DNA of 43,139 nucleotides from Ferruginibacter sp. (GTDB taxonomy: Bacteria > Bacteroidota > Bacteroidia > Chitinophagales > Chitinophagaceae). Shown here piece after piece: positions 3,101 through 39,623 of the stretch (position 1 is the stretch's first letter; the number at the start of each line of letters is the position of its first letter). The position numbers and the translations under genes were made by a program. The stretch covers positions 1-43,139 of the forward strand of contig JANXSR010000431.1 in assembly GCA_025352625.1 (NCBI GenBank). The letters are read 5' to 3'. The notes under the pieces were generated by a model. That model saw only the letters and a program-made list of their open reading frames with translations, did no database searches and was not told the origin of the DNA.

Positions 3101-6100
3101 TAGCAACATCATTTAGCTCTTCGCTTTTTTGCATGGCCATTGTTCTGGCCCTTACTCTTTCCAATGCCAATTGTATTTGTGCCTCTCTTGCCTGTGCTTC
3201 TGCTTTTTGCAGATCGAGAAAACGGGTATAAGCTTGCTCAAAAACTTTTCCGAAACGTTTAAAAATTCCCTCTTCTTCCTTGGTAAATTCTTTGAGATCA
3301 AACCGTTGAAAAATCAATATGGAGTTTTTAGAAGCCACAACGGCTCTAATATATGCAGGTGAATGATACACAAATTCCTGTCTTTCTTTAGAAAACTTCG
3401 CAAAATCGGAGTATTTGAACAGAAGCCTGAAATACTTATTCTTTTCAGCCTTTGAATAATTTTCAGTATAAAAATCGACATTTTTATTCAAGGCATTAAT
3501 GAGCCTGTTTGTAATGGGATGTTCTAAATACGGAATATGAAATTTTTCCAGGTCATCTTGTCCCTCCCTGGCATACCAATCATTCACACCATCTTCAGGA
3601 TTGGCAAAATCAGTTACTATTTGCGTGCCGCTTACTTCTACTCTCAATCCTATTATTTCCTTATCAAGAATTCGAACGACTTCAACCAGTTCTTCACTTT
3701 TATGCATGGCCATGCTCCTGCTTCTCACTCTTTCCAGTGCCGCTTCAATTTGAGCCTCTCTTGCCTGTGCTTCAGCTTTCTGTAAGTCAAGAAAACGGGT
3801 ATAGGTTTGTTCAAAAACTTTGGCGAAGCGTTTGAAAGTATCATGCATTTCGGGGAAATGCTCAGAAGTAATGAAAAGCAGGTTACCGTGTGAAAAATTA
3901 GCAAGATGATCAATTTGAAAAGTTGGAAATGGGATGCCGGCATCCAACATATTTTGCAATATCTCTCCCAAAACAGGAAGTGATAACATATACCTGTAAT
4001 GGCCAGCTTGATATTCACCTTCCTTTTCATACACAAAAAGTTCATCGCCTCTCTTTCTTGATTCATTGAAGGCAATAAAAACCGGATGTTCTGTTAACGG
4101 AATTTTGCAAGGTGGCAAAATATCCCCTTCAGTACTTCCCGGATACCATGTACATTCCTTGTCATCAATTTCAAAGATGTTAAATCCGCAATGAAATTGG
4201 GGCACGCCTAATGTTTTCACCTGTTGGAAAAGAAGAACTGCCACTTCAGGCAGTTCTTCACTTCGCTGCATTGCCATTGTTCTGCTTCTAACTTTTTCCA
4301 GTGCACTTTCTATTCTTGCTTCTTTTGCTTGTGCTTCTGCTTTCTGCAGGTCGAGAAAGCGTATGTAGGTTTGTTCAAATACTTTAGCGAAGCGTTTGAA
4401 AACATCATGCATTTCAGGGAAATGCTTGTAGGTAATAAAGATCAGGTTGCCGTAGGCAAAATTGGCGACATGATCAATTTGAAAAACAGGGAACTCGAAA
4501 CCGACGTCAAGCATGCTTTGCAATAAATCTCCAACACCGGGGAGCGAAAGCATATATTGATAATGGCCCTTTTGGTAATCACCTTCTTTTTCATAAACAA
4601 AAAGTTCATCGCCACGCCTTCTTGATTCATCAAAGCTTATAAAGACAGGGTGTTCTGTTAGCGGGATTTTGCAGGGTGATTGCGATATGATTCCGTCTGG
4701 TGTACCCGGGTAATAGGTGAATTCTTTGTCGCCGGTTTCCCAGATATTAAACCCACAATTCCACTGAGGTACCCCTAATGCTTTCACTTGCTGAAATAAG
4801 ATGGAGGCGACATCCAACAATTCATCACTGTGCTGCATAGCCATTGTTCTTGCACGAACTCTTTCCATGGCCAGTTGAATTTGCGATTCTCTTGCCTGCG
4901 CTTCTGCATTTTGCAGATCGAGAAATCTTGTATACGTCTGTTCAAAAACTTTTCCGAATCGTTTAAATATGTCGTGTGCCTCAGGTACTGGCTCATAAGT
5001 GATGAACATAAGGCTCAGTTTTGAACCGAACACAAAATGCTCATATTGATGAGAAGGGAACTGGTTGCCATCTTGCCTCATTTTCTCAAACTGCTCTTCA
5101 CCCAATCCGGTTAGTGCGATGTACAATTGTTTGATCTTCTCTCCTTCGACATATTGCACATCAAATTCAACTCCGCTTTTCCTGGCGTTACTGATGTCTT
5201 GTAATGCTTCAGCCCTGTCTGTTAGCACGGTATAGGGCTCAATAAAACCTCCGTTAGGACTGGTTATGTAATCAACGTAAGAGTTATTGTCATCACTCCA
5301 GACATTGAACCCGGCTGTCCAGCTTTTGATGCCCAGATCTGTTACCTGTTTAAACAAAAGGCCGGCCACCTCTGTCAGTTCCTCACTTTTTTGCATGGCC
5401 ATTGTTCTACTTCTAACTTTTTCCAAAGCAGTTTCAATCTTTGCCTCCCTTGCCTGTGCTTCGGCTTGTTTTAAATCATTGAAACGTGTATACGTGAGAT
5501 CAAAAACTTTTCCGAAGCGGCTAAGAATATCAAGATTGGCCTCAGATAAAGGCGCATCTCCAACAGTTTGTAATCCTCCGAAATTGCTGAACGAGAAAGA
5601 ACAAACATATTTTTCCATAGCCCTAGATGCTGCCTGTGCAACTTCAGGTGTTCTCTTAAATTCCGTTTCACTAAATAAATAATCGTCATAGATTCGTTTT
5701 TCATTCCCTTCGAGTGTATACACCGACTTAGTCTTCCTTTCTTTCCAGTCTTTCAATATCGCATGATGATAAGGATAATCTTCAAACTTCATGTAATAAG
5801 ATTCAGGCTCCTTATCTATATCAGGATTTGCTGCCCAAACGGTATTAGTCAATGAACTTACATCTATTATATTAATGATACACCAGGTTAATGCAAAATC
5901 AAGTTTGGTTAATTCTTTAAAAACAATATCAACTAATTCAGACAATTCATCAGACTTTTGCATAGCCATTGCTCTTGCCCTCACTCTTTCCAATCCCAAT
6001 TCTATTTGTGCTTCTCTTGCCTGTGCTTCTGCTTTTTGCAGATCGAGAAAACGAACATAGGCCTGTTCAAAAACTCTTGCAAACCGTATTACCACCTGAA

Positions 6101-6692: not shown

Positions 6693-6959
6693 GTTGTTTG
6701 GTTTAAACAGAATTATTATTGGGTATACTTTAATTTTCGCAGGGCTGGACGGCAGTAACTATTGTGATGGCAAGGGTTGAGGATAATAATTCATTCAAGT
6801 TAAACTTAAATTTCATTTTTGGCAAGTGTAAGGCAACCAGGCACTGAATTTAATTAAGTGCCTTCTCCTTCTTTTATTGCTGCTTTAAACTATACCGGAC
6901 AAATCCGGAATTCAATTCCGGATTTGTCCAATACTCATTTTTTAAGTGTTAATTTATTT
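6693..6959. other. Intergenic region upstream of the first kinase
   Basis: This 267-bp stretch separates the ATPase stop codon from the kinase start. It contains the palindrome at 6897-6929 and a weak 6-bp stem (GGCACT/AGTGCC, 6840-6862, no T-run). The promoter of the kinase is presumably here, but I could not pick out a convincing Bacteroidota TTTG / TAnnTTTG pair. I see no gene. Confidence 0.5.
6897..6929. repeat. 33-bp perfect palindrome, downstream of the DUF4143 ATPase
   Basis: The arms GGACAAATCCGGAATT (6897-6912) and AATTCCGGATTTGTCC (6914-6929) are perfect inverted repeats around a single C. The same bases plus AAT (36 bp, 6897-6932) recur identically at 8133-8168 on the other side of the ATPase gene. 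It lies 30 bp beyond the ATPase stop codon. No T-run follows on the minus strand, so it is not a standard intrinsic terminator. Confidence 0.9.
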
Positions 6960-8111
6960 TCAGTAAAATTTATTCCATGGTTGTACAATTATCCCGTTGC
7001 TTCTTTGCTGTTCCTGCTTCCCTCCATATATTATTATTTTCCAGACAGGCTTTGTATTTAATGCCGAGAAATATTCAACGCCTTTAAAAAAATCGGTTGA
7101 TACTGTTTCGCCTGCTTTTAATTCCATCGCAGTTAATTTACCAGCTTTATCTATCAGGATATCTACTTCATTGCCCGTTTTATCACGCCAGTAAAAAAGG
7201 TTATCGGCTTCACCGGTATTAAAACGCTCTTTCAGCAATTCGCTTACAACCAGGTTTTCAAATAAGGGGCCCTTGGCTGTGTGGGTAGCAATTTGAGCAG
7301 CATTGCTTATGCCGAGCAATGAACAGGCTACACCGGTATCATAAAAATAAAGTTTGGGGGTTTTAATAATACGCTTATTAAAATTACCATGGTAAGGTTT
7401 AAGTAAATAAATAACATAGCTGCTCTGCAGTATGCTTAACCATGCTGCTACGGTTTTTTGGTCAATACCGCAATCGTTTGAAAGTGAAGTAAGGTTTAGT
7501 ATCTGGCCAGTTCGCCCGGCACATAAGCGGAGCAGTTTTGTAAATTGCGAAAGGTTGCTGATATTTTTTAGTTGCCGCACATCTCTTTCAACATAAGTAT
7601 TAATATAACCGGCATACCAGTCTGCCGGATTTATTTTTTTTGCAATTACTTCAGGATAGCCGCCATGCAGTATATGCCAGCTGTAACCGGCTTTTATTTT
7701 TTTATTTTCCCTCAATTCCTGCAGCGAAAAAGGTAACAATTGTACATAGGCAATCCTGCCCGAAAGTGATTGTGAAATATTTGACTGCAATAAAAAGTTA
7801 TTTGAACCAGTCAATATAAACAAGCCTTTCTTTTTTGTTTCGTCGAGCACTTGTTGTAAATAAGAAAACAGGTGAGGCGCCCTTTGAATTTCATCCAATA
7901 TGGCGCCGCTTTTAAACTGTCCCAGGAACCCCCTTGGGTCGGCACTGGCAAATTCCAAAGTATCGGGGTTCTCTAAAGAAACATACGGCTTTTGCGGAAA
8001 CACCGTTTTGCAAAGCGTGGTTTTACCGCTTTGTCTTGGCCCTATCACCGCTACGCTGCGGAACGTTTTTGCCAGCCTTTTCAGCCGGTCTTCTGCTGTA
8101 CGTTTTATCAT
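6960..8111 (-). CDS. P-loop ATPase with DUF4143 / nuclease-like C-terminal domain
   Basis: This 383-aa protein is of the AAA_14 + DUF4143 type. Walker A is GPRQSGKTT (residues 24-32), Walker B is AILDEIQRAP (70-79), a sensor-like ILTGSNNFLL follows at ~99-108, and an SLSGR arginine lies near 115-119. The C-terminal part has the order LFENLVVSEL (E285), GNEVDILID (D317) and AMELKAGE (E330-x-K332), which matches the E...D...ExK pattern of PD-(D/E)XK folds. Such ATPases are abundant in Bacteroidota and archaea but have no settled function. The gene sits between two paralogous kinases and is bracketed by identical palindromes, which suggests it arrived as a unit. The ATG at 8111 lies 19 bp from the upstream palindrome. 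Confidence 0.9.
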   Translation of the reverse strand: MIKRTAEDRLKRLAKTFRSVAVIGPRQSGKTTLCKTVFPQKPYVSLENPDTLEFASADPRGFLGQFKSGAILDEIQRAPHLFSYLQQVLDETKKKGLFILTGSNNFLLQSNISQSLSGRIAYVQLLPFSLQELRENKKIKAGYSWHILHGGYPEVIAKKINPADWYAGYINTYVERDVRQLKNISNLSQFTKLLRLCAGRTGQILNLTSLSNDCGIDQKTVAAWLSILQSSYVIYLLKPYHGNFNKRIIKTPKLYFYDTGVACSLLGISNAAQIATHTAKGPLFENLVVSELLKERFNTGEADNLFYWRDKTGNEVDILIDKAGKLTAMELKAGETVSTDFFKGVEYFSALNTKPVWKIIIYGGKQEQQRSNGIIVQPWNKFY

Positions 8112-8130
8112 GTTTTAAAGATAGGATATT

Positions 8131-8167
8131 TTGGACAAATCCGGAATTCAATTCCGGATTTGTCCAA
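8131..8167. repeat. 37-bp perfect palindrome upstream of the DUF4143 ATPase
   Basis: This copy extends the 33-bp core at 8133-8165 by two bases per side, so the outer ends read TTGGACAAAT and ATTTGTCCAA. It ends 19 bp before the ATPase ATG on the minus strand and 41 bp beyond the stop codon of the second kinase. Its location suits an operator or a 5'-leader hairpin; the matching copy on the far side also suits the end of a mobile cassette. Confidence 0.9.
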
Positions 8168-8208
8168 TCCGGCTTTTCGTCATCTTCCCCATAGATAAAA
8201 TAGAGCGG

Positions 8209-11200
8209 TTACGATGGAATAGGTAATTGAATGATAAACTCGGTTCCTGCGCCCTCTTTACTTTCTACTTTTATTTCGCCACCATGCGCTTTCACAATAT
8301 CATACGCTAAACTCAAACCTAAGCCTGTTCCCTGGCCGGTAGGTTTGGTAGTAAAGAATGGTTGAAATATTTTATCTGCTATTTTTTGAGGAATGCCCGG
8401 CCCGTTATCTTTCACACTTATTAAAACCTTATCGCCCATTTTTTTTGTACTCACCCAAACAGTAGGCTCATGTTTATACGAGGGGTCTGAGAACCCCCCT
8501 TCGGGGGGCAGGGGGGCCGCATAAAACGCATTGTTATAAAGGTTCAGCAACACCCTTCCAATATCCTGTGGAATAATATTGATGTTACCAATCGTTTCAT
8601 CAAAATCTGTTTTCAATGTTGCATTGAAAGATTTGTCTTTTGCACGAAGCCCATGATAGGAGAGGCGTAAGTATTCATCACACAAACCATTAATATCCGT
8701 TGGTTCTTTTTTGCCTTCACTCTTTCTTGAATGCTGCAGCATTCCTTTTACGATGGCATCGGCACGTTTGCCGTGGTGATTTATTTTTTTTTCGTTTTCT
8801 GCAATATCATTTAATAATTCATCTTCCAGTTGTTCATCTCTTTCACTTTTCACTTTTAACTTTTCACTTTTTAATTCTTCAATCAGTTCAGTGTTTACTT
8901 CACTAAAATTGTTCACGAAGTTTAACGGGTTCTGAATTTCATGTGCAATGCCTGCGGTGAGCTCACCAAGGCTTGCCATCTTTTCTGACTGTATCAACTG
9001 TGTTTGTGTGGCACGCAATTCAGTAAGTGCATCTTCGGCACGCCGCTTTTCTGTCTGTAATTTTATCAGGTCTTCTTCTGCCTGTACGGCGTGTGCTTCC
9101 GCTATTTTCAAATCATTAAAACGGGTATAGGTAAGATTGAATACTGCCGCGAAACGTTCAAGTAAAAAAATAGTTTCTCCGGGTTGTTCATCAGGAGAAG
9201 CGATGCCAATAAAACCCTTGCCGAAATAAGCGATGTTTTGTATGCGCCGTTGTTGCGTATGGCCTATGGTTACGGGCACATGCAATTCACCGGAGAGGTA
9301 CTGAATATAATCAGCCAGCTCGTTCCCCTGCATAGCAATGGTAATTGATTTTTTCTGCTGCTTCCAGGCATCATACATTTTTTTTACAGAGGTGTTTCTT
9401 TTGCTGCTTAATGTAAACCGGTTGTTCACTTTGCCGCCATCTTCGTCAGTGGCCCATGCTTCAATATCTCCGGTATTATCTGTAATGATGCCGATGTATA
9501 AACGATTTGGTGCAATGCCCAGCAAAATCAACTGCCTGAAGAGTACCGCGGCGGTTTCTGCCAGCTCATCACTTTTTTGCATCGACATGGTTCTGCTGCG
9601 TACCCTTTCCAATGCCGCTTCTATCGTAGCTTCCCTTGCCTGTGCTTCTGCTTTTTGCAGATCAAGAAAACGGGTATAGGTTCTTTCAAATTCAACAGCA
9701 AAACGGCTTAGTATCTTTTTTTCTTCGTCCGGCAATTTGTTTTTCACCATTACACCAAAGCAGCCGTATTTCATAAAGGCTTCCACATAATACAATCCAT
9801 CTGAAAAATATTCCGGTTTTAGTTGTTCTACCCCGGCAATCAGCTCCTGCCATGCGGCGAAATAATTTTGTACGCCGGCTGGTGGCACCTGGTAAGCAAC
9901 CACGGGTTCATTGCCTTTCCAGTCAACAAGACATTGCGCTGTCGCAGATTCATTTCTGTCGAGCGGGTAACTGATAGCTTTACTCTTAAAACTGGTCGAA
10001 TTATCTTCAGCCCAGGCAGCCCAGAAAATATGTTTGTCTTTTTCTTCATCCGGCAACCACAAAAAGGAAAATGCTGATGGAATACCGAGCAACAAAACCT
10101 GTTCATGAAAAACCCTTAAGGTGTCATCGAGTTCTTTTGAATGCTGCATCATCATGCTTTGTGTACGGGTGCGTTCCAATGCGGCTTCGATCTTTGCTTC
10201 TCTTGCCTGTGCTTCTGCTTTTTGTAAATCAAGAAAACGGGTATAGGTTTGCTGAAATACTTTTCCAAAACGTATGAGTGTATTATTCTCTTCCTCTGTA
10301 TAAGGAGTGCCGGTAAAATTCTCCATGTACAGTGCAACACTATCAAACAATACTGTTGATGCTGCAAGGCCCGGACAACTTAAATAAAAATCTTTTGATG
10401 CTTCCGGTAACCCGGGAACATAGGATAAAAGCTCATTGTAAAATTTGTTCTTTTCTTCAAAATTTAAGATGGTGGCAAAAAAGTCTGCAGCTTTTTCTTT
10501 TGCTTCATTAAATTGATTTGCCCAAACAGACTCAAAATACGGATGCGTTATTGTAGAAGGAATGTCCTGCTCATCAGCGATCCAAAAATGCCAATCACCT
10601 CCCGGTGCATAGTCAACAACAAAACCTGCGTGGTTAAGATTAATTTTTAAATGAGAGAGTTGCTGATAAACAATTTTTATTACTTCTTTAAGCTCCTCAC
10701 TTTTTTGCATGCCCATGCTGCGGCTTCTCACTCTTTCCAATGCTGCTTCTATCTGTGCTTCCCTTGCCTGTGCTTCTGCTTTTTGCAGATCGAGGAAGCG
10801 GGTATAGGTCTGTTCAAAAACTTTTCCAAATCGAAGAAATATCTGTGTTTCATCAAACGTTTTCGTTGTAATTAAAAGTAAATACCCATGTTTAAAAGTA
10901 ATGGCATGATTTTTTTGCCATGTTGGAATTGGATGACCACTCTCTATAAATTTTTGCAGCCCTTCTTTAAAGGCAGGAATCTTCATATACAATTCAAAAT
11001 ACTTCTTTATTTTTTCACCGTCATAAACTTCCTCATACATTCCTGACTGGCTTTTCCAGGCTTCATACATACGTTGCTCACCCGATTCAATCGTGTATGG
11101 AACAGAAAAGACACCAATGTTGGTCCATTTTTGAACCATAGTGCTGTTATTGTCGCATATAGAAAATGCTACTCCCTGCAATTCAGCGCCAAGTTGTTTC

Positions 11201-13773
11201 AATTGATCAAGCAAAAGTTCTGCAGTCTCAATTAATTCATCACTATGCTGCATCGCCATTGTTCTGGCACGTACCCTTTCCAATGCAAGTTCTACCTGTG
11301 CTTCTCTTGCCTGCGCTTCTGCTTTTTGCAGATCAAGAAAACGGGTATAGGTTTGTTCAAAAACTGCCGCAAACCTTTTAAATACATCATGAAATTCAGG
11401 ACAGGGTTCCAGCGTAATAAACAACAAATTACCTTGCGAAAAATTAGCGAGGTGATGTATTTGTGTTTCAGGTAAATCGAAACCTACGCTTATTGCATAC
11501 TCGAAATATGCCTTAAAAGCCGGAATAGTTTTAAGATAGTTATAATGCTCCTGCATCCTTTCGCCACGCAATTCCAAAACAAAAAATTGTTCGCCATTTT
11601 GTTTCGACTCCACATAGCGGATAAAATTAGCGTCTTCAGTCAACGGGATATTTGAAACCCCGTTAATTTCACTACCATCCTGGGTACTCATCCATGAAGT
11701 AAATTCTTTTTCATCTTTTTCCCAGATATTGTATCCGCAGCTATAAGCCGGCGCTCCTAATGCCTTTACCTGCTGAAATAATAATGCTGCCGCATTTTTC
11801 AGTTCATCACTATGCTGCATAGCCATCGTTCTTGCACGAACTCTTTCTAATGCCAGTTGAATTTGTGATTCTCTTGCTTGTGCTTCTGCATTTTGGAGAT
11901 CAAGAAATCTTGTATAGGTCTGTTCAAAAACTTTAGCGAAGCGTTTGAAAATATCCCAGGCTTCCGGGATAGGTTCACCGGCGATGAAAATGAGGTTGCC
12001 ATGTTTAAAATTAAAAACATGGTTTATTTGAAATGTGGGTAATGAAAAACCATCTTTTAATTGCACGTCTGCAATGGCCTTAAAATCCGTAAGGTTTAAC
12101 ATATTTCTGTAGTGTTCTGCCAAAGCCTCGCCACCCATTTCCTCTACATAAAAAAGTTCTCCCTTTAGGCGGGATTCATTCATGTGCATGAAGGTGCGGC
12201 CATAGGTAAGTGGTATTCTGAATGATGGTTGAAGGGCACCATGTGTACTCATCCAGCCGGTGCAGAAATCTTCTCCTTTCTCCCAGATATTATACCCGCA
12301 AGTCCAAACAGGAATTTCTAATAACCGCACCTGCTGAAATAATAAGTTAGCAGCTTCCATCAGTTCTTCACTGTGTTGCATGGCCATCGTTCTTGCACGA
12401 ACCCTTTCCAGTGCCAGTTCTATTTGTGCTTCTCTTGCCTGTGCTTCTGCTTTTTGCAAATCGAGAAAACGGGTATAGGTTTGGTCAAAAACTTTTCCGA
12501 ATCGTTTAAAGATGTCATGTGCTTTTGGTACCGTTTCATAAGTTATAAACAACAAAAAGCCCTGTGAAAAATAAACACAATGAAATATTTGAAAAGCAGG
12601 CAGGGGATGGCCTGCCGCAACAATGGAATCTAAAATTTTACCCACCACCGGCAGTGTACGCATATACTGGTAGTGGGTTACCAATGCATCACCACCCACT
12701 TCTTCTGCATGAAATGCCTCCCCTCTTTCATAAGCTTCCTTCATATGAATAAAAGAAGGATCTTCTGTTAGCGGTGCATGAAAAGAAGGCTGCATCACAC
12801 CTTCACTGCTCATCCATAAAGTAACGCCCTGCTTGTCATCATCCCAAATGCAATAGCCCGCACTCCATGCCGGCATGCCCAATGCCTGCACCTGCACAAA
12901 CAGGTTATTGGCAGCTTCAGGCAGCTCACTGCTTTTTTGCATAGCCATGGTTCTTGCACGAACTCTTTCCAATGCCAGTTCAATCTGTGCTTCTCTTGCT
13001 TGTGCCTCGGCATTGCTGATATCGACATATCTTTTGTACGCCAGGTCAAATACATTACGAAAGCGTTTCAGCAATTCTAGTTTTTGATCATTTATCGGGC
13101 TGTAAGTGGAGATGCCTACCGAACCATCTCCTATAGAGTAAAAATAGTAGTACAGCGCATCAGTAATTTCAAGTTGTGGGTCGTCTTGTTCCCCATTATG
13201 TTTTCTTAATTCCCTGAATGACCTTAGTTCTTCGCCTGCAAAGGAAAATTCAAAAAAAGCATCAGGCGCAGCTTTTGTAACCCTGATCTGCTTTTCAACA
13301 AGCGGATGAAAATTGTATGGAATATCCGTAACTGTTTTATCAGTATTACCGGAATAATCATAATTCAGTAAAGAAGCTTTATCATCATTATGAATATTGA
13401 TCATCGTATTCCTGAGTGCAGTAAAGCTAAGAGCGGCAAGCTCTTTAAAAAGTATTTCGCAGATGTCCAAAAGGTCGCCTGGTTTTTTCATGCCCATAGC
13501 AACCATTCTTACCCTTTCCAGTGAAGTTTCAATTTCCAGTTCCCTGCTTTGCGCCTCCACTGCTTTTCTTTTATGCTCCAGTTCTTCTATGGTTTCTTCC
13601 AGAAGAATAGTAGTCGCAGTTTTTGCTTTTTCTGTTTTATCTAATTTCAATATCGTTGTCTCCAATTCCTTATCAGCATCTTTCAACGATTTTAACAGGG
13701 CTGTTTTTTGTTCGGCAGATAAAGTTTCACCCTGCTGAATAAGATGCATTACGCTTTGAAGATGCTGATTCAT
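8209..13773 (-). CDS. Giant soluble histidine kinase with eight tandem sensor modules
   Basis: This 1854-aa paralogue of the kinase at 120-6692 starts at an ATG at 13773. Residues 1-80 are a charged, probably coiled-coil leader. Eight GAF-like modules follow (~80-1560), joined by the same ALERVRARTMAMQ and YTRFLDLQKAEAQ helices. After a coiled coil comes the HisKA helix with phospho-acceptor His near residue 1611 (AHEIQNPLNFVNNF), then HATPase_c with NLYNNAFYA, DNGPGIP, FQPFFTTKP and GQGTGLGLSLAYDIVKAHGG. No receiver or membrane domain is present. Two loops of the kinase core hold short foreign-looking inserts (KSEKLKVKSE and PLPPEGGFSDPS). The kinase cores of the two proteins are nearly identical, so they probably talk to the same partner while the different module sets sense different inputs. 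Confidence 0.93.
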   Translation of the reverse strand: MNQHLQSVMHLIQQGETLSAEQKTALLKSLKDADKELETTILKLDKTEKAKTATTILLEETIEELEHKRKAVEAQSRELEIETSLERVRMVAMGMKKPGDLLDICEILFKELAALSFTALRNTMINIHNDDKASLLNYDYSGNTDKTVTDIPYNFHPLVEKQIRVTKAAPDAFFEFSFAGEELRSFRELRKHNGEQDDPQLEITDALYYYFYSIGDGSVGISTYSPINDQKLELLKRFRNVFDLAYKRYVDISNAEAQAREAQIELALERVRARTMAMQKSSELPEAANNLFVQVQALGMPAWSAGYCIWDDDKQGVTLWMSSEGVMQPSFHAPLTEDPSFIHMKEAYERGEAFHAEEVGGDALVTHYQYMRTLPVVGKILDSIVAAGHPLPAFQIFHCVYFSQGFLLFITYETVPKAHDIFKRFGKVFDQTYTRFLDLQKAEAQAREAQIELALERVRARTMAMQHSEELMEAANLLFQQVRLLEIPVWTCGYNIWEKGEDFCTGWMSTHGALQPSFRIPLTYGRTFMHMNESRLKGELFYVEEMGGEALAEHYRNMLNLTDFKAIADVQLKDGFSLPTFQINHVFNFKHGNLIFIAGEPIPEAWDIFKRFAKVFEQTYTRFLDLQNAEAQARESQIQLALERVRARTMAMQHSDELKNAAALLFQQVKALGAPAYSCGYNIWEKDEKEFTSWMSTQDGSEINGVSNIPLTEDANFIRYVESKQNGEQFFVLELRGERMQEHYNYLKTIPAFKAYFEYAISVGFDLPETQIHHLANFSQGNLLFITLEPCPEFHDVFKRFAAVFEQTYTRFLDLQKAEAQAREAQVELALERVRARTMAMQHSDELIETAELLLDQLKQLGAELQGVAFSICDNNSTMVQKWTNIGVFSVPYTIESGEQRMYEAWKSQSGMYEEVYDGEKIKKYFELYMKIPAFKEGLQKFIESGHPIPTWQKNHAITFKHGYLLLITTKTFDETQIFLRFGKVFEQTYTRFLDLQKAEAQAREAQIEAALERVRSRSMGMQKSEELKEVIKIVYQQLSHLKINLNHAGFVVDYAPGGDWHFWIADEQDIPSTITHPYFESVWANQFNEAKEKAADFFATILNFEEKNKFYNELLSYVPGLPEASKDFYLSCPGLAASTVLFDSVALYMENFTGTPYTEEENNTLIRFGKVFQQTYTRFLDLQKAEAQAREAKIEAALERTRTQSMMMQHSKELDDTLRVFHEQVLLLGIPSAFSFLWLPDEEKDKHIFWAAWAEDNSTSFKSKAISYPLDRNESATAQCLVDWKGNEPVVAYQVPPAGVQNYFAAWQELIAGVEQLKPEYFSDGLYYVEAFMKYGCFGVMVKNKLPDEEKKILSRFAVEFERTYTRFLDLQKAEAQAREATIEAALERVRSRTMSMQKSDELAETAAVLFRQLILLGIAPNRLYIGIITDNTGDIEAWATDEDGGKVNNRFTLSSKRNTSVKKMYDAWKQQKKSITIAMQGNELADYIQYLSGELHVPVTIGHTQQRRIQNIAYFGKGFIGIASPDEQPGETIFLLERFAAVFNLTYTRFNDLKIAEAHAVQAEEDLIKLQTEKRRAEDALTELRATQTQLIQSEKMASLGELTAGIAHEIQNPLNFVNNFSEVNTELIEELKSEKLKVKSERDEQLEDELLNDIAENEKKINHHGKRADAIVKGMLQHSRKSEGKKEPTDINGLCDEYLRLSYHGLRAKDKSFNATLKTDFDETIGNINIIPQDIGRVLLNLYNNAFYAAPLPPEGGFSDPSYKHEPTVWVSTKKMGDKVLISVKDNGPGIPQKIADKIFQPFFTTKPTGQGTGLGLSLAYDIVKAHGGEIKVESKEGAGTEFIIQLPIPS
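8481..8518. repeat. GC-rich hairpin insert within the kinase domain
   Basis: The run CCCCCC (8494-8499), TTC, GGGGGG (8503-8508) is a perfect short hairpin followed by a further G-run. It is read in frame as PLPPEGG in the loop between the N box and the next strand. The composition differs sharply from the AT-rich surroundings and it looks like one of the small dispersed repeats that land in Bacteroidota genes. Confidence 0.6.
8841..8874. repeat. AAAAGTGAAAAGT-type microrepeat insert in the kinase
   Basis: The minus strand repeats AAAAGTGAAAAGT with small variations, translated KSEKLKVKSE, just after the HisKA helix. The other kinase lacks it at the aligned position. The peptide type KLKVKSEK is typical of small dispersed repeats in this phylum. 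Confidence 0.55.
9110..13540 (-). repeat. Eight tandem ~560-bp protein-coding repeats in the second kinase
   Basis: The module-opening LER(V/T)R codons recur near 13515, 12965, 12405, 11838, 11276, 10728, 10170 and 9603, a period of about 550-570 bp. The linker codons are close to identical to those of the first kinase, so the locus holds 18 stretches that could recombine. Modules 2-5 share the pattern HYxYM, a (F/L)PxxQ(I/K)xH motif and a GxLLFIT strand; modules 1, 6, 7 and 8 are more divergent. Confidence 0.9.
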
Positions 13774-14092
13774 TTTTTTTCTATGAGATTGATTTAAAAA
13801 GATGATCCTGTAATTGTATTGATATGCCCTGTGATGAAGTTCCCTTTGGCCTATGATTAAATACTGGTTTTAGTTTTTACAGGCTCCGGAACAGACTAAA
13901 ATCACTTCTTCAGCATGCCAGCTTTTATCAGGAGTATTTAAAAATTTCCCAGTAAGCCACCATGGTAATAACTATTTCAGCAATTGGTTTTTAGATATCC
14001 AGCTAGCGTGCAGGCTTAGGTATTGGGTTTTATGCGTTGATGGTTATATAACTGGAAGGTAATGTAAAAATGCTTTATTATGCAGTTGTTTA
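13774..14092. other. Gene-free stretch upstream of the second kinase
   Basis: About 320 bp with no credible reading frame on either strand and no strong hairpin. The kinase promoter is presumably in the last ~100 bp before 13773 but I cannot place it. Together with the remnant that follows, the whole 678-bp region looks like eroded former coding DNA. Confidence 0.4.
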
Positions 14093-14275
14093 TCAGGTAA
14101 AAAATACTGGCTGCTGATTACTTTTATACAACTTATCAAGATACAAATACCGGGGAGAGGTTTTTGTGATTGCTGCGCCTAAAAATCGAGTACAGGTTAT
14201 GATTGAAGGTTCTGCCAGAAAGGGTTTTACTACGGCCGGTTTTATAAATTTTTGTGATTGGATTTTTACTGCCAA
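14093..14275 (-). pseudogene. Remnant of a carboxylesterase C-terminus
   Basis: A 60-codon frame ends with SPRYLYLDKLYKSN, which aligns with DARYLKLDKLYKNN at the end of the intact carboxylesterase at 14452-16086. The preceding residues (SIITCTRFLGAAITKT against VMIINTVSGAIKATN) also match loosely. The fragment lies just downstream of the intact gene in the same orientation, so it is probably the tail of a decayed tandem copy, or the old end of the same gene left after a duplication. The rest of the enzyme is missing and no signal for translation is seen. It should not be counted as a gene. Confidence 0.6.
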
Positions 14276-14387
14276 TGTAATTGGATAGATTATTATTTGC
14301 TTAACATTTCTTCGAAAGGTCGGAAAACCTGAAGTCCGCTACAATTTGAAATACACCCTTATATTATGCGAAAGCAGTATAAACAAT

Positions 14388-14430
14388 AAAGCCATAAAGA
14401 AAAGTTGTATTGATTTTTCTTTATGGCTTT
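14388..14430 (-). terminator. Strong hairpin terminator after the carboxylesterase
   Basis: The arms AAAGCCATAAAGAAAA (14388-14403) and TTTTCTTTATGGCTTT (14415-14430) pair over 16 bp around an 11-nt loop. It lies 21 bp beyond the esterase stop codon. Read on the minus strand, the stem is followed by a moderately T-rich stretch; read on the plus strand it ends in five T. It could work in both directions. Confidence 0.75.
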
Positions 14431-14451
14431 TTGCAAAATTAAACGGGACTA

Positions 14452-16086
14452 TTAATTGTTCTTGTACAATTTATCCAATTTCAAATACCGGGCATCATTT
14501 GTTGCTTTTATTGCTCCGGATACGGTGTTAATGATCATTACATCAGGTTCAGTTGCAATTGCTTCTGCAGCTGGCCAGTTAGGTAAATCTTTTCCATTAG
14601 GATTTCCGCTAATGATAAAATTGGCAAAATAGTTTTGCATAGTTGCTGATACTTTGTAATCATCTTCTGTCCATGCATGATCTTTATTAAGCGATAAATT
14701 GCCCATACAATATTCTATTTCGCAGGCATGTGGCGCTCCAACTGGCTCGGGCATTTTTAAACTAGGTTGTGTATTTTTATTGGTGCCCCCAGCTAATCCT
14801 GCGGTAAGCGAAGCATCAATCAGGGGAGGCATTAACTTTGAATAAAGGTACCGGTAAACGGGCTTAGCGCTGTTTTTACGGTGCAGGTCAAACCATTTCC
14901 AGGTGCTGTAGGCAATAAAGCGATCTGCTGCCAATGCGGTGGCTGATAATTCAATTTCTTTATCCGAACTATGGGGATAGAGCTTTAACATTTCTTCCCA
15001 ATCCTGTGGATATTCTGCTTTTACTCTGGCAATATAATTTTCTTCTTTAAAGGGTTGCCCCTGCATAAATGCCGCTCCCGGAATCTCGGCTGAATTCCAT
15101 CCTAACAGCAAAGGAACCATAGCCTGTTCTTTTGCATTAAAAATAGCAGTAACCGTTTTAGGAAGAAAATATCCGTCAATGGTAATAGGAAAACCAAAAC
15201 GCTTAGAATCCTGGTACTTTTCAAACAATGCTGCCGTGCTCATGGCACGCATGGCTGCAATAGATGTTACGCCTGCTTTTGAAGCAAATTCCATTCCCTG
15301 CTTTTCTGCATCTGCCATAGGTACAGGAGAAAGGGTAGGGTTAATGCTTGCTCCACTTTCACCAATAGCACCGGCAATAAGGTTCTTTGATAAAGGGGAA
15401 GCCATCTGCGCACTCACGGATATAGAGCCTGCAGATTCACCTGCAATAGTTACCCGTTTGGGATCACCGCCAAAGGCTGCAATATTTTGTTGCACCCATT
15501 TAAGAGAAGCATACTGATCGAGCAACCCATAATTACCTGAACCTTTATATGGCGTTTCGGCACTTAGTTCCGGATGTGCGAAAAATCCAAAAATACCTAA
15601 ACGATAATTTACTGTTACTACCACAATTCCTTTCTGTGCCATGCTGCCACCATCATATCTTGGCTCAGATCCGTCTCCTGCAACAAAACCGCCACCATAG
15701 AAATAAACCAGCACGGGGAGATTTTTTGTATTGTAGCGGGCAGGTGTCCATACATTTAAATAAAGACAATCTTCGCTCAAGCCGTTGGATCGGGCATTCA
15801 TATCGCCGAACACAATACCTTGTATGGGTCTTGGTCCAAATTTTTTTGTTGTCTTTACACCCTTCCAATTGTCAGGTGCTTGTGGAGCTTTCCATCTCAA
15901 TGCACCTACCGGCGGCTTGGCAAAAGGTATGCCGAGGTAAACCTGCAGTCCATCTTTTGTGTTATAGTTTCCTTCAATAATTCCATTGGCAATGGTGGTC
16001 TGCACAGGAAAACCAAAATCAGTTTGTGCGTTGGCAATGGTAGTAATTTGGCAAATAAACAGCAGTAATAATGCAATTCGTTTCAT
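14452..16086 (-). CDS. Secreted type-B carboxylesterase
   Basis: This 544-aa protein of the carboxylesterase/lipase (COesterase) family hydrolyses carboxylic esters, substrate unknown. I chose the ATG at 16086 because it opens a clear signal peptide (MKRIALLLLFICQ... ANAQ); the upstream in-frame TTG at 16128 would spoil it. The oxyanion-hole motif is YGGGFVAGDG (~130-139). The nucleophile elbow is GESAGS with Ser near residue 218, preceded by the family's FGGDPKRVTI. The probable acid lies in GWNSAEIPG and the catalytic His in GAPHACEIEY. Length is normal. It is transcribed away from the Nudix regulator, with a palindrome between them, so that regulator may control it. A decayed second tail lies downstream. 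Confidence 0.92.
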   Translation of the reverse strand: MKRIALLLLFICQITTIANAQTDFGFPVQTTIANGIIEGNYNTKDGLQVYLGIPFAKPPVGALRWKAPQAPDNWKGVKTTKKFGPRPIQGIVFGDMNARSNGLSEDCLYLNVWTPARYNTKNLPVLVYFYGGGFVAGDGSEPRYDGGSMAQKGIVVVTVNYRLGIFGFFAHPELSAETPYKGSGNYGLLDQYASLKWVQQNIAAFGGDPKRVTIAGESAGSISVSAQMASPLSKNLIAGAIGESGASINPTLSPVPMADAEKQGMEFASKAGVTSIAAMRAMSTAALFEKYQDSKRFGFPITIDGYFLPKTVTAIFNAKEQAMVPLLLGWNSAEIPGAAFMQGQPFKEENYIARVKAEYPQDWEEMLKLYPHSSDKEIELSATALAADRFIAYSTWKWFDLHRKNSAKPVYRYLYSKLMPPLIDASLTAGLAGGTNKNTQPSLKMPEPVGAPHACEIEYCMGNLSLNKDHAWTEDDYKVSATMQNYFANFIISGNPNGKDLPNWPAAEAIATEPDVMIINTVSGAIKATNDARYLKLDKLYKNN

Positions 16087-16109
16087 AATAAAAAAAGATT
16101 TAAATTTTA

Positions 16110-16128
16110 TTGTCTCAATTTGATACAA
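16110..16128. promoter_or_regulatory. Palindromic operator candidate between esterase and Nudix regulator
   Basis: TTGTCTCAA (16110-16118) and TTGATACAA (16120-16128) form a 9-1-9 inverted repeat with one mismatch. It sits 23 bp upstream of the esterase ATG and 54 bp upstream of the regulator ATG. A loose Bacteroidota-type promoter for the regulator (TTG at 16144 and TATTTTTA at 16164) lies next to it. This is where an autoregulating Nudix-family repressor would be expected to bind. Confidence 0.5.
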
Positions 16129-16182
16129 TAATAAAAAAATTAATTGACTTTCAACTTTTTTAATATTTTTACTTTTCTACAC

Positions 16183-16908
16183 ATGGCAAAACAAAAAGAT
16201 AATCCGGCTGAAAATAAGAAGGGTGAAAGTTACCTTACACATGTTGCATTTGATTCTGTAGTATTTGGGTTTAGTGGCGAAAAATTGAAGATACTGGTAA
16301 TGGAATACCATAACACCGGGCTGTTTGCCTTGCCTGGTGGCTTTGTGGGGCTTAAAGAAAACCTGAATGCTGCTGTGCGGCGTGGCTTAAAAGAACGTAC
16401 AGGTTTATCAAATATTTACCTGGAGCAGTGTTATGTATTTGGAGATGTAAAGCGGCACCAGCCGGCAGTGCTTCGCAAAATTATTAAAGCAAACGGCCTT
16501 GCTGCTGATGATAAACACTGGTTACTGGATCGGTTTATCTCTGTTGCGTATTATGCATTGATTAATTATAGTAAGGTAAAATTACAACCGGATACCTTGT
16601 CAGATTCATGCGAATGGTACGACCTTGATGCAGTACCTAAACTAATGCTGGATCATAATTTAATTGTGCAAAAAGCGCTGGAGACGTTGCGAAAAAATCT
16701 GGACGAAAAACTTTTGGGCACCAACTTGTTACCGCTTCAATTTACTATGAAACAATTGCAACAGGTGTATGAAGCCATCCTGGATGAGAAAGTGCATCGT
16801 ACCAATTTTCAGCGCAGGATGCTGGCTTCGGGGTTATTGATTCGTACTGAAAAACAATTTTTAGGTAAAGCCCATAAGGCTCCTTATTTGTACCAGTTTG
16901 TGAAGTAA
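16183..16908 (+). CDS. Nudix-domain transcriptional regulator (NrtR/AraR-like)
   Basis: This 241-aa protein has an N-terminal Nudix domain (~20-150) and a C-terminal winged helix (~165-241: TMKQLQQVYEAILDEKVHRTNFQRRML...), the layout of NrtR- and AraR-type regulators. The Nudix box at 53-75 (GFVGLKENLNAAV... GLKERTGL) keeps the first E, the R and the final G, but the RE pair reads RG and the EE pair reads ER. Hydrolysis is therefore unlikely and ligand binding more likely. The ATG at 16183 is preferred over an in-frame TTG at 16144. It is the only clear plus-strand gene here, divergent from the esterase and convergent with the M20 gene. Such proteins usually sense an ADP-ribose or sugar ligand; the one used here cannot be told. 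Confidence 0.88.
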   Translation: MAKQKDNPAENKKGESYLTHVAFDSVVFGFSGEKLKILVMEYHNTGLFALPGGFVGLKENLNAAVRRGLKERTGLSNIYLEQCYVFGDVKRHQPAVLRKIIKANGLAADDKHWLLDRFISVAYYALINYSKVKLQPDTLSDSCEWYDLDAVPKLMLDHNLIVQKALETLRKNLDEKLLGTNLLPLQFTMKQLQQVYEAILDEKVHRTNFQRRMLASGLLIRTEKQFLGKAHKAPYLYQFVK

Positions 16909-16949
16909 CAATGTTTACCCAACCACCAGTTTAATAAATACCGATACCC

Positions 16950-18377
16950 TTAATTTTTCGGCACTGGTGGCGGACCATCCGGCAACATCGCCTTCCACAC
17001 TTCTTTTCCTTTTCTTTTTAAAAATTCTTCTTTAATGTCGTTGCGTAGCTTTTCATTTTCAAACAAATCAACCATGGTGGTGCCCAACGATTTGGAAGTA
17101 AATAACATGCCCTTGTGACCAATGCTCATACCACCGCAGGCCACCACCACCCAGCTATGCCACGGCGCTTCGTAAGGAGCTGTAGTAGCCAGTAAGGTAA
17201 TTTCAGGAACAATATAACTTACATCTCCCACATCTGTAGAGCCACCTACCGGATCTTCTTTTGTTACTTCAAGCGGTTTGATTGTTCCACTGATGCCTTT
17301 AGATTCCAGTCCGTATTCCTTCATAATTTTTTCACCAAATGCCAATTCTTCTTTTGTATAGGTTACGGGGCCTACAAAATTCATATTGCTTTGTAAAGTT
17401 TTGGCGCCCGTTTCATTGATCAGTAATTCGTACAAGCCGCTGTTTAATTTGATATCGTATTGTACGCCTGCCATCAATGCTGCGCCTTTGGCTATGTCTT
17501 TCATGCGTTCGCTTACTTCGGCTACGCCACTTCTTTTACTGTCACGTATCCACAACCAAACACTTGCCTCATCTGGAATTACATTGGGTACTTTACCTGC
17601 CTTGCTGTAAACATAATGCATACGCACACTTGGTTTTACGTGTTCTCTTAAAAAATTAATACCGATATTAAATAATTCTGCCGCATCCAAAGCACTCCTG
17701 CCATTCCATGGATCGGCTGCTGCATGCGCACTTTTACCTTTAAACGAGATGGTGTAATCTGTTACAGATTGTGAACTTTGCATATTGGCTTTGTTTTCAT
17801 AATCGGGATGCCAGTCGAGACATACATCAAGATCATTAAATAAACCTGCTCTTGCCATGTAAACCTTGCCTGCTAAATCCTCTTCTGCAGGCGTACCATA
17901 AAAGCGGATAGTGCCTTTTAATTTACCGGCAGCTATCAATTCTTTAATAGCCAAAGCAGCACCTAAACTACCGGCACCAAACATGTTATGGCCGCAACCA
18001 TGACCGGGAGCGCCTTCCAGCAAAGCCTCTTTGGTTGGCTGCGCCTTTTGCGAAAGGCCGGGCAATGCATCAAACTCTCCCAATACACCAATGATGGGTT
18101 TGCCACTACCAAACTCAGCAATAAATGCAGTAGGTATTTCGGCTACTCCGCGGCTTACTTTAAAACCCTGAGCTTCTGCATAATCGGCCAGTACTTTGGA
18201 GGATTTGGTTTCCTTCATGGCAATTTCCGCAAAGCCCCAAATCTGGTCGCTGAGTGAAATTAATTCCTGCTGGTGTTTTTCAACAGAAGCCAGTACAGCA
18301 TTCTTGTTTGCACTGGTTAGTTTTTGTGCAAACAATAATTGCGATAAAAAAAGTAATGGTAAAAAAAGTAATCTCAT
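16950..18377 (-). CDS. Exported M20-family amidohydrolase (AbgB-like)
   Basis: This 475-aa protein has a signal peptide (MRLLFLPLLFLSQLLFAQ) and belongs to the M20 group that includes p-aminobenzoyl-glutamate hydrolase subunit B. Metal and catalytic motifs are visible: GHGCGHN (Cys128, His130), GTPAEED (Glu165/166), DWHPDYEN (His190) and GGSTDVGDVS towards the C-terminus. The dimerisation lid (~200-310) is of normal size. It should cleave an N-acyl or aminobenzoyl-type amide bond in the periplasm; the substrate is unknown. The gene ends 41 bp from the convergent Nudix gene. It is separated from the hydrolase run upstream only by the ATPase gene at 18508-19956, which looks inserted. Confidence 0.9.
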   Translation of the reverse strand: MRLLFLPLLFLSQLLFAQKLTSANKNAVLASVEKHQQELISLSDQIWGFAEIAMKETKSSKVLADYAEAQGFKVSRGVAEIPTAFIAEFGSGKPIIGVLGEFDALPGLSQKAQPTKEALLEGAPGHGCGHNMFGAGSLGAALAIKELIAAGKLKGTIRFYGTPAEEDLAGKVYMARAGLFNDLDVCLDWHPDYENKANMQSSQSVTDYTISFKGKSAHAAADPWNGRSALDAAELFNIGINFLREHVKPSVRMHYVYSKAGKVPNVIPDEASVWLWIRDSKRSGVAEVSERMKDIAKGAALMAGVQYDIKLNSGLYELLINETGAKTLQSNMNFVGPVTYTKEELAFGEKIMKEYGLESKGISGTIKPLEVTKEDPVGGSTDVGDVSYIVPEITLLATTAPYEAPWHSWVVVACGGMSIGHKGMLFTSKSLGTTMVDLFENEKLRNDIKEEFLKRKGKEVWKAMLPDGPPPVPKN

Positions 18378-18507
18378 GCTGATGTTTTAATGTTGTTTTT
18401 AATTTTATTCACTGTTGTATGAATGTATTGATTTTTTTAATTAAGAGGTTTATTTAAAACTTATCATTACTAAATCATTTTCTGTTTATAAAAAATAGAC
18501 CTAATAA

Positions 18508-19956
18508 CTATTCGGGTTTAAATAATTTTTCCATGCTTATCTCATTGTCAACATCGCCAAGATAATACTGGTTTTGCATGGCAGGAAATGTGGTTAGCAA
18601 CGTTGTAAAAGTTGCTTTCTTAGTTAGTGTGGCCTGTCTGAAAATAGATTTTTTCATTTTTAATTGTGCTGCATAGCTTTTGGTAATAGCAAAGGTTTCT
18701 TTGGTAAATTTAGCTTCGCATAAATTAATTGTTTGGTCGGCACGGTCAATGATCATATCTATCTGTGCACCGGGCAGTGCATCGTTGCCTGCAAATTGCC
18801 AGGAGCTGGTGGTAGTGTAAACGCCACTGATACCCAAAGTTTTTTTTATCTGGCTGATATGCTGCATACAGATATTTTCAAAAGCATAACCACTCCATGC
18901 GGTAAAGTTGCTGAGTTTGGATAACTGATCCCAGGTGCCTCTGCCCCCTTTTTTATTGGGCTTGATAAATTTTAAATAAAAAAGTGAATACAGGTCAGTA
19001 AGTTTATAAATAGCTGTTTTCTTTTTATTGACAAATGGCTGATAAAAGGAAACAAAATCACACTCCACCAGTTCTTCTAATGTACGGGATAAGGTGCCTT
19101 CGCTTAATTTAGTTTTAAGGGCTATTGAACTTCTCGTCATTCCCTGCGGTTTAGATGCAAGCGCTTCAATGACAGCTATATGCTGATCTGCATTTTTAAA
19201 CAGGGAGTGATACAACTGTGCATATTCAGTATGCAGCAAACCCTGCTTTGCAAAACAGGTGCTGTCAATAATCTGCGCCGCACTTTTACCCTTAGTCACT
19301 TCTTTCAGGTAAAAGGGGATGCCTCCCATGGCCATATACAGTTCCAGTATCTGGTAACGGGGAAGCTTTGCACCCAGGCTGTTTAAAAATAATTCTGTTT
19401 CGTACAAATTAAAAGGCATTAATTGTATGCGTTGCGTAACACGGTTATACAGGCCGCCTCTTGCACTGATAAGTTTCTTTTTTATCCATGATGAAGCAGA
19501 GCCACACGCAATGAGCAATACATTATTCATATTGGAAGCATGCTGGTTCCAGAAAAATTCCAATGCGGCGATGAAACCTGCTTTGGGTATATCCAGCCAG
19601 GGCATCTCATCTATAAACACCACATGCTTCTGCTTTTTTACGGGTAAACTTTTTATGTATACCGCTAAATAATTAAAAGCTTCCTGCCACGAGGCAGGGA
19701 TATTTTTTTCCTTTCTACCTTTAGCTCTTCTCAGGTACTCTTCATGAAAGTTATACAGTTGTTCTTCTTTAGTTCCGTCTTTTGTGCCTGTAAAATCAAA
19801 TACCAGGTTGTTCTTTAAATATTGTCTTATTAAAAATGTTTTACCAACCCTTCTGCGGCCATACACTGCCAGGAATTCCGCCTGCCCAGACAGCAGCATC
19901 CTGTCTATTTTTTCTATTTCATTTTCACGGCCTACCAGGCTTATAGTTTGAGTCAT
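18508..19956 (-). CDS. P-loop ATPase with DUF234 / nuclease-like C-terminal domain
   Basis: This 482-aa protein is of the ATPase_2 (archaeal-type STAND-like) + DUF234 kind. Walker A is GRRRVGKT (33-40) and Walker B is VVFIDEMPWLD (112-122). A region consistent with a winged helix lies at ~255-300 (SKPQGMTRSSIALKTKLSEG). The C-terminal domain has AFENICMQHI (E360), GAQIDMIID (D400) and LCEAKFT (E414-x-K416), the E...D...ExK order of PD-(D/E)XK folds, as in the other ATPase of this window. The ATG at 19956 is 11 bp from the first of two tandem 37-bp palindromes. The gene interrupts a run of hydrolase genes it has no obvious link with. Function is unsettled for the family. Confidence 0.9.
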   Translation of the reverse strand: MTQTISLVGRENEIEKIDRMLLSGQAEFLAVYGRRRVGKTFLIRQYLKNNLVFDFTGTKDGTKEEQLYNFHEEYLRRAKGRKEKNIPASWQEAFNYLAVYIKSLPVKKQKHVVFIDEMPWLDIPKAGFIAALEFFWNQHASNMNNVLLIACGSASSWIKKKLISARGGLYNRVTQRIQLMPFNLYETELFLNSLGAKLPRYQILELYMAMGGIPFYLKEVTKGKSAAQIIDSTCFAKQGLLHTEYAQLYHSLFKNADQHIAVIEALASKPQGMTRSSIALKTKLSEGTLSRTLEELVECDFVSFYQPFVNKKKTAIYKLTDLYSLFYLKFIKPNKKGGRGTWDQLSKLSNFTAWSGYAFENICMQHISQIKKTLGISGVYTTTSSWQFAGNDALPGAQIDMIIDRADQTINLCEAKFTKETFAITKSYAAQLKMKKSIFRQATLTKKATFTTLLTTFPAMQNQYYLGDVDNEISMEKLFKPE

Positions 19957-19967
19957 TGTATTTTATT

Positions 19968-20004
19968 TTGGAGAAATCGCTATAAATATACCACATTTCT
20001 CCAA
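19968..20004. repeat. 37-bp palindrome, proximal copy, upstream of the DUF234 ATPase
   Basis: The outer arms TTGGAGAAAT and ATTTCTCCAA are perfect inverted repeats around a 17-bp centre containing TATAAATATA. It ends 11 bp before the ATPase ATG. Read in the gene's direction, the centre contains TATATTTA, close to the Bacteroidota -7 element, so the palindrome may overlap the promoter. Total length and outer pattern match the palindromes of the DUF4143 ATPase. Confidence 0.9.
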
Positions 20005-20022
20005 TTAATTTATTTTACATTT

Positions 20023-20059
20023 TTGGAGAAATCGATATAAATATACTACATTTCTCCAA
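20023..20059. repeat. 37-bp palindrome, distal copy, upstream of the DUF234 ATPase
   Basis: This is a second copy of the element at 19968-20004, with the same arms and two base changes in the centre. The start-to-start distance is 55 bp, about five helical turns, so proteins bound to both would lie on the same face. Including one more T and A, the perfect arms extend to 20022 and 20060. Confidence 0.9.
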
Positions 20060-20119
20060 AGATAATTTTAATAAAAAACATCATTGCTTAAAAAATATCC
20101 GCCTTACTTTACAGACTGT

Positions 20120-28088: not shown

Positions 28089-28126
28089 GGATTCCATATT
28101 TGTAAAATCTTACAGATATGGAATCC
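28089..28126. repeat. 38-nt palindrome between two membrane-protein genes
   Basis: GGATTCCATAT (28089-28099) pairs with ATATGGAATCC (28116-28126); inside it TGTAA pairs with TTACA around AATC, with one T-G opposition. The stem is thus about 17 bp with a 4-nt loop. No T-run follows on the minus strand, so it is not an ordinary terminator. The left flank TTGGA resembles the outer ends of the ATPase-associated palindromes, but no ATPase gene is adjacent. Confidence 0.85.
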
Positions 28127-29378: not shown

Positions 29379-29409
29379 AAAGGTTTATTTAAAATTCTTT
29401 TTATGATCA

Positions 29410-30732: not shown

Positions 30733-30783
30733 CTCTAAATATATTTTGATGTGGAAGTTTTATTCAGATTAATTTTTATGTTG

Positions 30784-32103: not shown

Positions 32104-32202
32104 TTTGTTGGTTTAATTAATAAATTCTGAAACGATGGTTCCTGAACTAAAAAACTGGTAAGGCAAAATATATTTGAATCAATAAAGCGATTCAATTGTA
32201 TG

Positions 32203-33396: not shown

Positions 33397-33437
33397 TGGT
33401 GTAATAAATTAAATAGATAAAAAATCAGGTCGTTTAA

Positions 33438-39615: not shown

Positions 39616-39623
39616 AAATTTTG

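Follow-up and report, generated by a model that had tools for sequence, protein, structure and literature searches.

The stretch of DNA described here, hereafter called the window, is the 43,139 nucleotides of contig JANXSR010000431.1 of Ferruginibacter sp. (assembly GCA_025352625.1), a member of the Bacteroidota. It carries two genes for ATPases ending in a nuclease-like domain, a DUF4143 gene and a DUF234-type gene, and this paper discusses the long inverted repeats which accompany these genes and their relatives. An earlier note on this DNA had described a 37-bp palindrome ahead of each of the two start codons, and both palindromes were found (Table 1). The DUF4143 palindrome stands on both sides of its gene, the downstream copy being equal to the upstream copy in 33/33 letters of the shared 33-bp core, and its inner part is palindromic too, whereas the symmetry of the DUF234 site is limited to the outer 10 bp. 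The fifth palindrome of the window is a solo copy flanked by a transporter-like gene (26524-28026) and an acyltransferase-like gene (28182-29378), both named from sequence reading. In the genome to which the window belongs (4.92 Mb, 480 contigs, 93% complete) the matches of the pattern TTGGANAAATN{13,21}ATTTNTCCAA are the three upstream sites only.

Table 1. Genes, palindromes and promoter-like elements of the window (strand as given; a point means none assigned).
Feature	Position	Strand	Remarks
DUF4143-gene downstream palindrome copy	6897..6929	.	16-bp arms; 30 bp past stop
DUF4143 ATPase-nuclease gene	6960..8111	-	AAA_14, winged helix-turn-helix (HTH)-like part and PD-(D/E)XK-like domain; PADLOC PDC-S01
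TATCTTTA, Bacteroidota -7-box-like element of DUF4143 gene	8116..8123	-	at -12 of start codon; apparently leaderless promoter
DUF4143-gene upstream palindrome	8131..8167	.	37 bp, 18-bp arms; 19 bp from start, centre -38
DUF234-type ATPase-nuclease gene	18508..19956	-	ATPase_2, winged-HTH-like part and weak DUF234; PADLOC PDC-S27
DUF234-type gene, first upstream inverted repeat	19968..20004	.	37 bp, 10-bp arms, 17-bp core; 11 bp from start
TATATTTA, -7-box-like element within first DUF234-type inverted repeat	19983..19990	-	
DUF234-type gene, second upstream inverted repeat, tandem	20023..20059	.	10-bp arms, 17-bp core
Solo palindrome of third (type C) ATPase unit	28089..28126	.	

The DUF4143 protein matches Pfam AAA_14 (9.9e-27) and then DUF4143 (5.6e-52), both above the cut-offs, and over its full length it matches PDC-S01 of PADLOC (4.4e-108), a phage defence candidate which is likewise an ATPase fused to PD-(D/E)XK and whose family we take to be COG1373. 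The DUF234-type protein matches ATPase_2 (PF01637, 9e-18), HTH_IclR (1.8e-05) and, also over its full length, the ATPase_2/DUF234 system PDC-S27 (5.4e-188), presumably COG1672; the name DUF234-type is used because its DUF234 match (E 0.0071, 17.2 bits) falls below the Pfam cut-off of 22.5. The E...D...ExK residues to which the earlier note had drawn attention are in place and conserved, E285 and D317 in 73/74, E330 in 72/74 and K332 in 74/74 DUF4143 relatives, and E360, D400, E414 and K416 each in 29/29 DUF234-type relatives. In addition, the Walker residues K30 (Walker A), D73 and E74 are kept in 74/74 DUF4143 relatives. Between the window and G050, a genome of the same genus, the DUF234-type gene has a nonsynonymous divergence (dN) of 0.024 and a synonymous divergence (dS) of 0.29, and the units are judged to be under purifying selection. 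The confident AlphaFold2 model of the DUF4143 protein (built on 22 sequences; predicted local distance difference test, pLDDT, 88.5) retrieved archaeal and STAND ATPases, RuvB, clamp loaders and the nuclease Cdn1 in Foldseek, with TM-scores up to about 0.5; the top match, Cdn1, has an E of 6.1e-7 yet a TM-score of just 0.22. The DUF234-type protein, modelled from a single sequence, gave an unusable model (pLDDT 33). Solved structures searched by sequence yielded a single match at E 0.87 and otherwise none.

Relatives of the two genes were drawn from 98 related genomes, from a genome collection and from 395 genomes of the class, the last searched for DUF4143 and for DUF234-type genes, and the best-matching loci, at most 30 per search, were taken. 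Inverted repeats were scored from -130 to +10 of the start (match +1, mismatch -1.5), a score of at least 12 being called strong, after 7/111 loci had been dropped because no P-loop, or no Met ahead of the P-loop, was found. A strong repeat stands at the start of 76/104 scored relatives of both families, partly related loci being counted separately (16/27, 17/21, 21/27 and 22/29 usable loci per search set), as compared with 3/115 other genes within the same loci, control regions which come from 70 loci and may overlap within a contig, and with about 0.7% of shuffled sequences. The enrichment which the earlier note had expected near these genes in other genomes is therefore present, although it was found by this general scan and not with the fixed TTGGANAAAT ends. 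The median length of the repeats is 42 bp, and the 5-95% range is 33-63 bp.

The palindrome is common in the relatives nearest to the window genes and patchy beyond them. Outside the Bacteroidota, clear repeats accompany a Treponema plasmid copy (score 19) and a Legionellaceae copy (13), and weaker ones those of Wolbachia (10), Allochromatium and a gammaproteobacterium (9.5 each). The repeat of a Sinorhizobium plasmid (11) extends into the start codon and that of a Babeliales copy (15.5) is placed at -131..-62, while the Agrobacterium, Qingshengfaniella and Ruminococcus copies have no repeat and Aliarcobacter has one of just 9.5, over 64 bp. Among Bacteroidota plasmids, Runella copies score 13 to 20, and one Runella and one Emticicia copy stay below 10. 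On the Emticicia plasmid pEMTOL02 (L184) a DUF4143 gene lies between an L-ribulose-5-phosphate 4-epimerase gene and araA and runs opposite to them, which looks like an insertion into a sugar operon. In viral contigs, neither DUF234-type relatives nor the window-type palindrome pattern were found when searched for.

The arms are diverse in both families, with GGACAAATCCGGAATT, GGACAAATTTGCAATC, TATGGAATTATTTGGAAT and others at DUF4143 genes and GCCAAAA, GCGGAAT, TTGGAGAAAT and others at DUF234-type genes. Because they vary so widely inside each family, the similarity TTGGA(C/G)AAAT between the two window sites (TTGGACAAAT and TTGGAGAAAT) is probably a coincidence, and one family sequence for both window palindromes was rejected. 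Of the earlier proposal, a family of ATPase-nucleases with palindromes of their own serving as operators or cassette ends, the common sequence was thus given up, while evidence was found on both alternatives. Matches of 29-30 bp to GGACAAAT...ATTTGTCC were taken as chance; they either fall within reading frames, serine recombinase genes among them, or are imperfect in the inner arms.

Symmetry was examined in 35 representatives; 13/75 usable DUF4143 loci had no centred repeat, 10/62 had even-centred repeats and were left out, and 17/52 were dropped as at least 75% identical to another. Complementary letters fill 86.6% of the arm cells, as compared with 22-40% in slid controls and at most 65% in shuffles. 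These loci had been selected for having a repeat, which favours symmetry, and the double changes are the telling part: both sides are altered somewhere in 16/17 pairs, and the doubly changed cells number 111, where shuffles average 33 and reach 46 at most. The mismatches in DUF4143 arms (13 G-T and 15 A-C) have no RNA-type wobble excess, so the symmetry looks like that of duplex DNA and not of RNA. Furthermore, arm distance tracks protein distance in 52 DUF4143 loci (Mantel rho 0.61, 0/999 permutations), which bears out the co-variation of arms and protein that had been suggested. It might be supposed that the symmetry has no function and comes from quasi-palindrome correction, that is, template switching, of an originally inserted palindromic element, and the symmetric outer extensions past the core do differ from copy to copy. 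This is very improbable, as the distance to the start codon is fixed (centre at -41..-36 in 30/52 DUF4143 genes) and as in both DUF234 repeats the outer arms are the same in the window and in G050 while the spacers differ.

The Bacteroidota -7 box, which we take to be TAnnTTTG, was scanned for with this consensus, 5 of 6 letters being required. A box starts at -13..-10 in 38/52 palindrome-bearing DUF4143 genes, and exactly at -12 in 31 of them, as compared with 5/23 DUF4143 genes without a single-base-centred repeat and 14/168 other genes. Since the box is mostly at about -12, the DUF4143 transcripts should be leaderless, and the palindrome apparently lies just upstream of the promoter or over it, on its upstream half. 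It thus overlaps or adjoins the gene's own promoter, as expected of an autoregulated operator and as judged by the promoter consensus alone. In DUF234-type genes, a -7-box-like element is found within the repeat in 23/25. An RNA hairpin in the 5' leader controlling translation is scarcely credible as the function of the palindrome; long perfect hairpins would be possible, and the DUF234 arms lean to G-T, but in most DUF4143 genes the -7 box stands between the palindrome centre and the ATG, so most or all of the palindrome should be untranscribed. For DUF4143 units the hairpin was rejected on this position and on the absent wobble excess.

The promoter position would also suit a plain operator for another regulator or a host factor, with the palindrome purely regulatory and the gene transferred horizontally in the ordinary way; genes that move horizontally commonly have regulated operators. 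Yet the arms differ among members and track the unit's own protein even across genomes of different families, which fits recognition by the encoded protein over a host factor. In addition, such an operator leaves the downstream and solo copies described below unexplained, and we consider it quite improbable.

The own palindrome is repeated 3-76 bp past the stop codon in 18/51 DUF4143 loci, the count omitting 1/52 with less than 120 bp downstream. As L046 and L151 are identical in sequence, this amounts to 17/50 distinct loci, and for one of the 18, L029, the repeat is weak. In the matching of downstream copies no locus falls between 20 and 23 of 33 letters, and shuffles reach 24 in 0/1020. DUF234-type loci have copies past the stop in 8/29 by reading. 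In L039, a palindrome of the third type lies 145-178 bp past the stop of a window-type unit.

Units whose proteins are 89-96% identical occur in genomes of four GTDB families (f49, f58, f42 and f32), and among their six pairs the palindromes are 89-97% identical while the 150 bp outside are 9-52% identical, random pairs having 31 ± 7%. More widely, 9 of 104 pairs with proteins at least 70% identical retain more than 50% identity outside the palindrome. Four of these 9 are the same or conserved loci (L046/L151; L042, L043, L053), one is a shared NadE locus (L019/L021), and the other four are L161/L163, L044/L045, L038/L044 and L038/L045. The unit therefore appears, from these comparisons, to move horizontally together with its palindrome.

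Solo and occupied sites were compared at several places. At a locus between NadE and MoxR genes, as named from sequence reading, the NadE end was recognised in 46 genomes of the same genus. The order palindrome-gene-palindrome is present in 3/46 (G050, G040 and G114), a lone palindrome without gene in 2/46 (G054 and, decayed, G117), and neither palindrome nor gene in 41/46, three of which have unrelated repeats. At a XerD locus seen in four genomes, G077 has two palindromes and the gene, G090 has one palindrome with flanks homologous (80% and 74%) right to its edges, and no palindrome was seen in G132 and G133. The place of the window's own solo palindrome (28089-28126) is occupied in G050 by two tandem palindromes of this type together with a DUF4143 gene, and homology between G050 and the window restarts at the palindrome edge. 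The window-type palindrome, one mismatch being allowed, has 10 sites in the 395 genomes, namely four pairs around DUF4143 genes and 2 solos; the scatter near unrelated genes that would have spoken against the earlier note is thus not seen, 8/10 sites flanking DUF4143 genes. One more solo palindrome is in G066. Searches of six solo loci with nine proteins gave no trace of an ATPase gene, except a weak stretch of 59 residues in L083. An empty site for the window DUF4143 unit, sought via the neighbouring kinase-like gene, gave just 4 other genomes of 93 with distant matches, and at the CvfB-like gene beside the L090 unit gene order is not conserved where examined.

These sites raise the question of a mobile cassette in which the palindromes are the working ends, the nuclease cutting them or the ATPase assembling on them, so that the gene would be excised with one copy and inserted at another site or solo palindrome. 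It would mean a minimal mobile element without a classical transposase. The palindromes on both sides of the gene in 18/51 DUF4143 loci, the NadE-MoxR and XerD loci with a solo palindrome or with two palindromes plus gene, the one palindrome at 28089 as compared with two tandem palindromes plus gene, the six solo loci free of gene remnants apart from that in L083, the fading of homology at the palindrome and the conserved nuclease residues all agree with it. On the other hand, 33/51 loci have no downstream copy, the two copies are direct in some units and inverted in others by reading, the few sites of one type per genome give no sign of bursts, and solos may have been left by ordinary deletion between repeats. 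We regard this cassette as unlikely. In a wider version the protein would use the palindrome in two roles, as operator and as site of recombination; the unit would then excise, leave a solo and insert elsewhere without transposase, and any defence would be a side effect of recognising foreign site copies or DNA without the site. This version is doubtful.

The sequences themselves show that the gene comes with a private site at its promoter, and that this site changes symmetrically and along with the protein. The explanation which we favour, and which is probably correct, sees in each gene a self-contained unit that spreads horizontally; its protein would recognise the unit's own palindrome, at the least as an operator through which the gene represses itself. 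Such a unit would consist of an ATPase that carries a winged HTH and a PD-(D/E)XK-type nuclease domain, together with a private inverted repeat. The encoded protein would recognise its own repeat on double-stranded DNA as a symmetric assembly, the site serving most simply as an operator. In view of the promoter position of the repeat, binding should keep the unit's own promoter closed, as autorepression, up to the moment when a trigger such as invading DNA acts on the ATPase. Site and protein would co-evolve, which would account for the symmetric changes of the arms, and loss or exchange by recombination through duplicated palindromes would leave solo sites. Less surely, the duplicated palindromes may be used for loss, gain or movement of the unit.

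Several points weigh against this explanation. Strong repeats are absent from 28/104 scored relatives, distant DUF4143 members often have none, several plasmid copies have none that is clear, and 0/7 DUF4143 genes in virus-labelled contigs reach a score of 12. Template switching, as palindrome correction, can hold arms symmetric without selection. The mismatches of DUF234 arms lean to G-T (14 vs 6), so these repeats may have some part in RNA, and the box inside them is weak evidence because equally long, 50-bp stretches further upstream have a -7-like box in 39/104. One of the six four-family pairs retains 52% identity outside the palindrome, and the GTDB family labels are anonymous, the inference of transfer resting on flank loss together with these labels. 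Finally, an operator alone leaves the copies past the stop and the solo copies unexplained.

The surroundings of the units in the window are as follows. The DUF4143 unit lies between two very long histidine-kinase-like proteins (120-6692 and 8209-13773, by sequence reading), both made up of numerous tandem repeats with 'ALERVR.R.MAMQ.S.EL' linkers; what follows a related unit in L038 is apparently a C-terminal fragment of such a kinase. The own genome contains a second DUF4143 gene, split over two frames (G000:C379:16585-17062). The DUF234-type unit belongs to a long stretch (16950-43115) of peptidase-, amidohydrolase- and permease-like genes, most of which point the same way, and G050 holds a DUF234-type unit at the corresponding place (92.8% DNA identity to the window). 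In addition, three tandem paralogous membrane proteins of the acyltransferase kind, presumably DUF1624-like, are encoded at 28182-34640, and an amidohydrolase-like gene at 38171-39669 is seemingly split into two overlapping reading frames. A 43-bp hairpin with 16-bp arms (14388-14430), 3' of a carboxylesterase-like gene, is terminator-like and unlike the palindrome family.

The units resemble several known systems in part. The STAND-type and archaeal AAA ATPases (2qen PABY2304, Apaf-1, NLR, Avs4 and Avs5) are like the DUF4143 model with Foldseek E values of 2.5e-6 to 3.2e-4, but the TM-scores are just 0.12-0.51 and RuvB and clamp loaders score alike; unlike these ATPases, PDC-S01 ends in a nuclease and has its own palindrome. 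In REP/RAYT and IS200-like palindromic elements a gene is flanked by palindromes, as in the present units. In contrast to the many copies of REP/RAYT, each type of site occurs just once or twice in a genome here, with three upstream-type sites in the own genome and the 10 window-type sites mentioned above. The Pfam, NCBIfam and PADLOC matches of the two proteins include no transposase domain of the known kinds that classical transposons encode, and no HUH domain is among their domain-scan matches. In the autoregulated operators of toxin-antitoxin and restriction-control systems a palindrome lies at the gene's own promoter, which they have in common with the present units, but the latter consist of a single gene with a site of 33-63 bp, which is member-specific and at times duplicated past the gene.

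PDC-S01 is described as an ATPase fused to PD-(D/E)XK in the part of PMC12988326 available to us, and in that part, where 'palindrom' occurs 0 times, no palindromes, private operators or cassette structure are mentioned for it. The same part places PDC-S01 fourth in frequency among the defence (candidate) systems of prokaryotes and states that most such candidates await validation (PMC12988326), and PDC-S01 is the most frequent individual locus of a rumen genome set according to an excerpt of PMC13356809. In the portions of the PDC-S27 literature at hand, no tandem palindromes around a -7 box were found described. For a Thermus homologue (AAA_14, DUF4143, HTH), a table in a section on expression changes with plasmid DNA present has a value of 6.6 (PMC4406477), which fits induction by foreign DNA and proves nothing for the window units. 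Our searches of the open full-text literature of PubMed Central (PMC), which leaves subscription papers and preprints outside its coverage, returned no description of palindromes at these genes in the passages and titles seen.

Both kinds of genes are widespread and are known mainly as candidate virus defences; the private palindrome that they often have at the promoter gives a direct handle on their function. A member-specific DNA site which tracks the protein is a concrete candidate ligand for binding, cutting and regulation. The palindrome hints at the way in which the genes are switched and marks one end, at least, of a mobile unit. Should the nuclease act at the palindromes, these units would amount to a new kind of mobile element.

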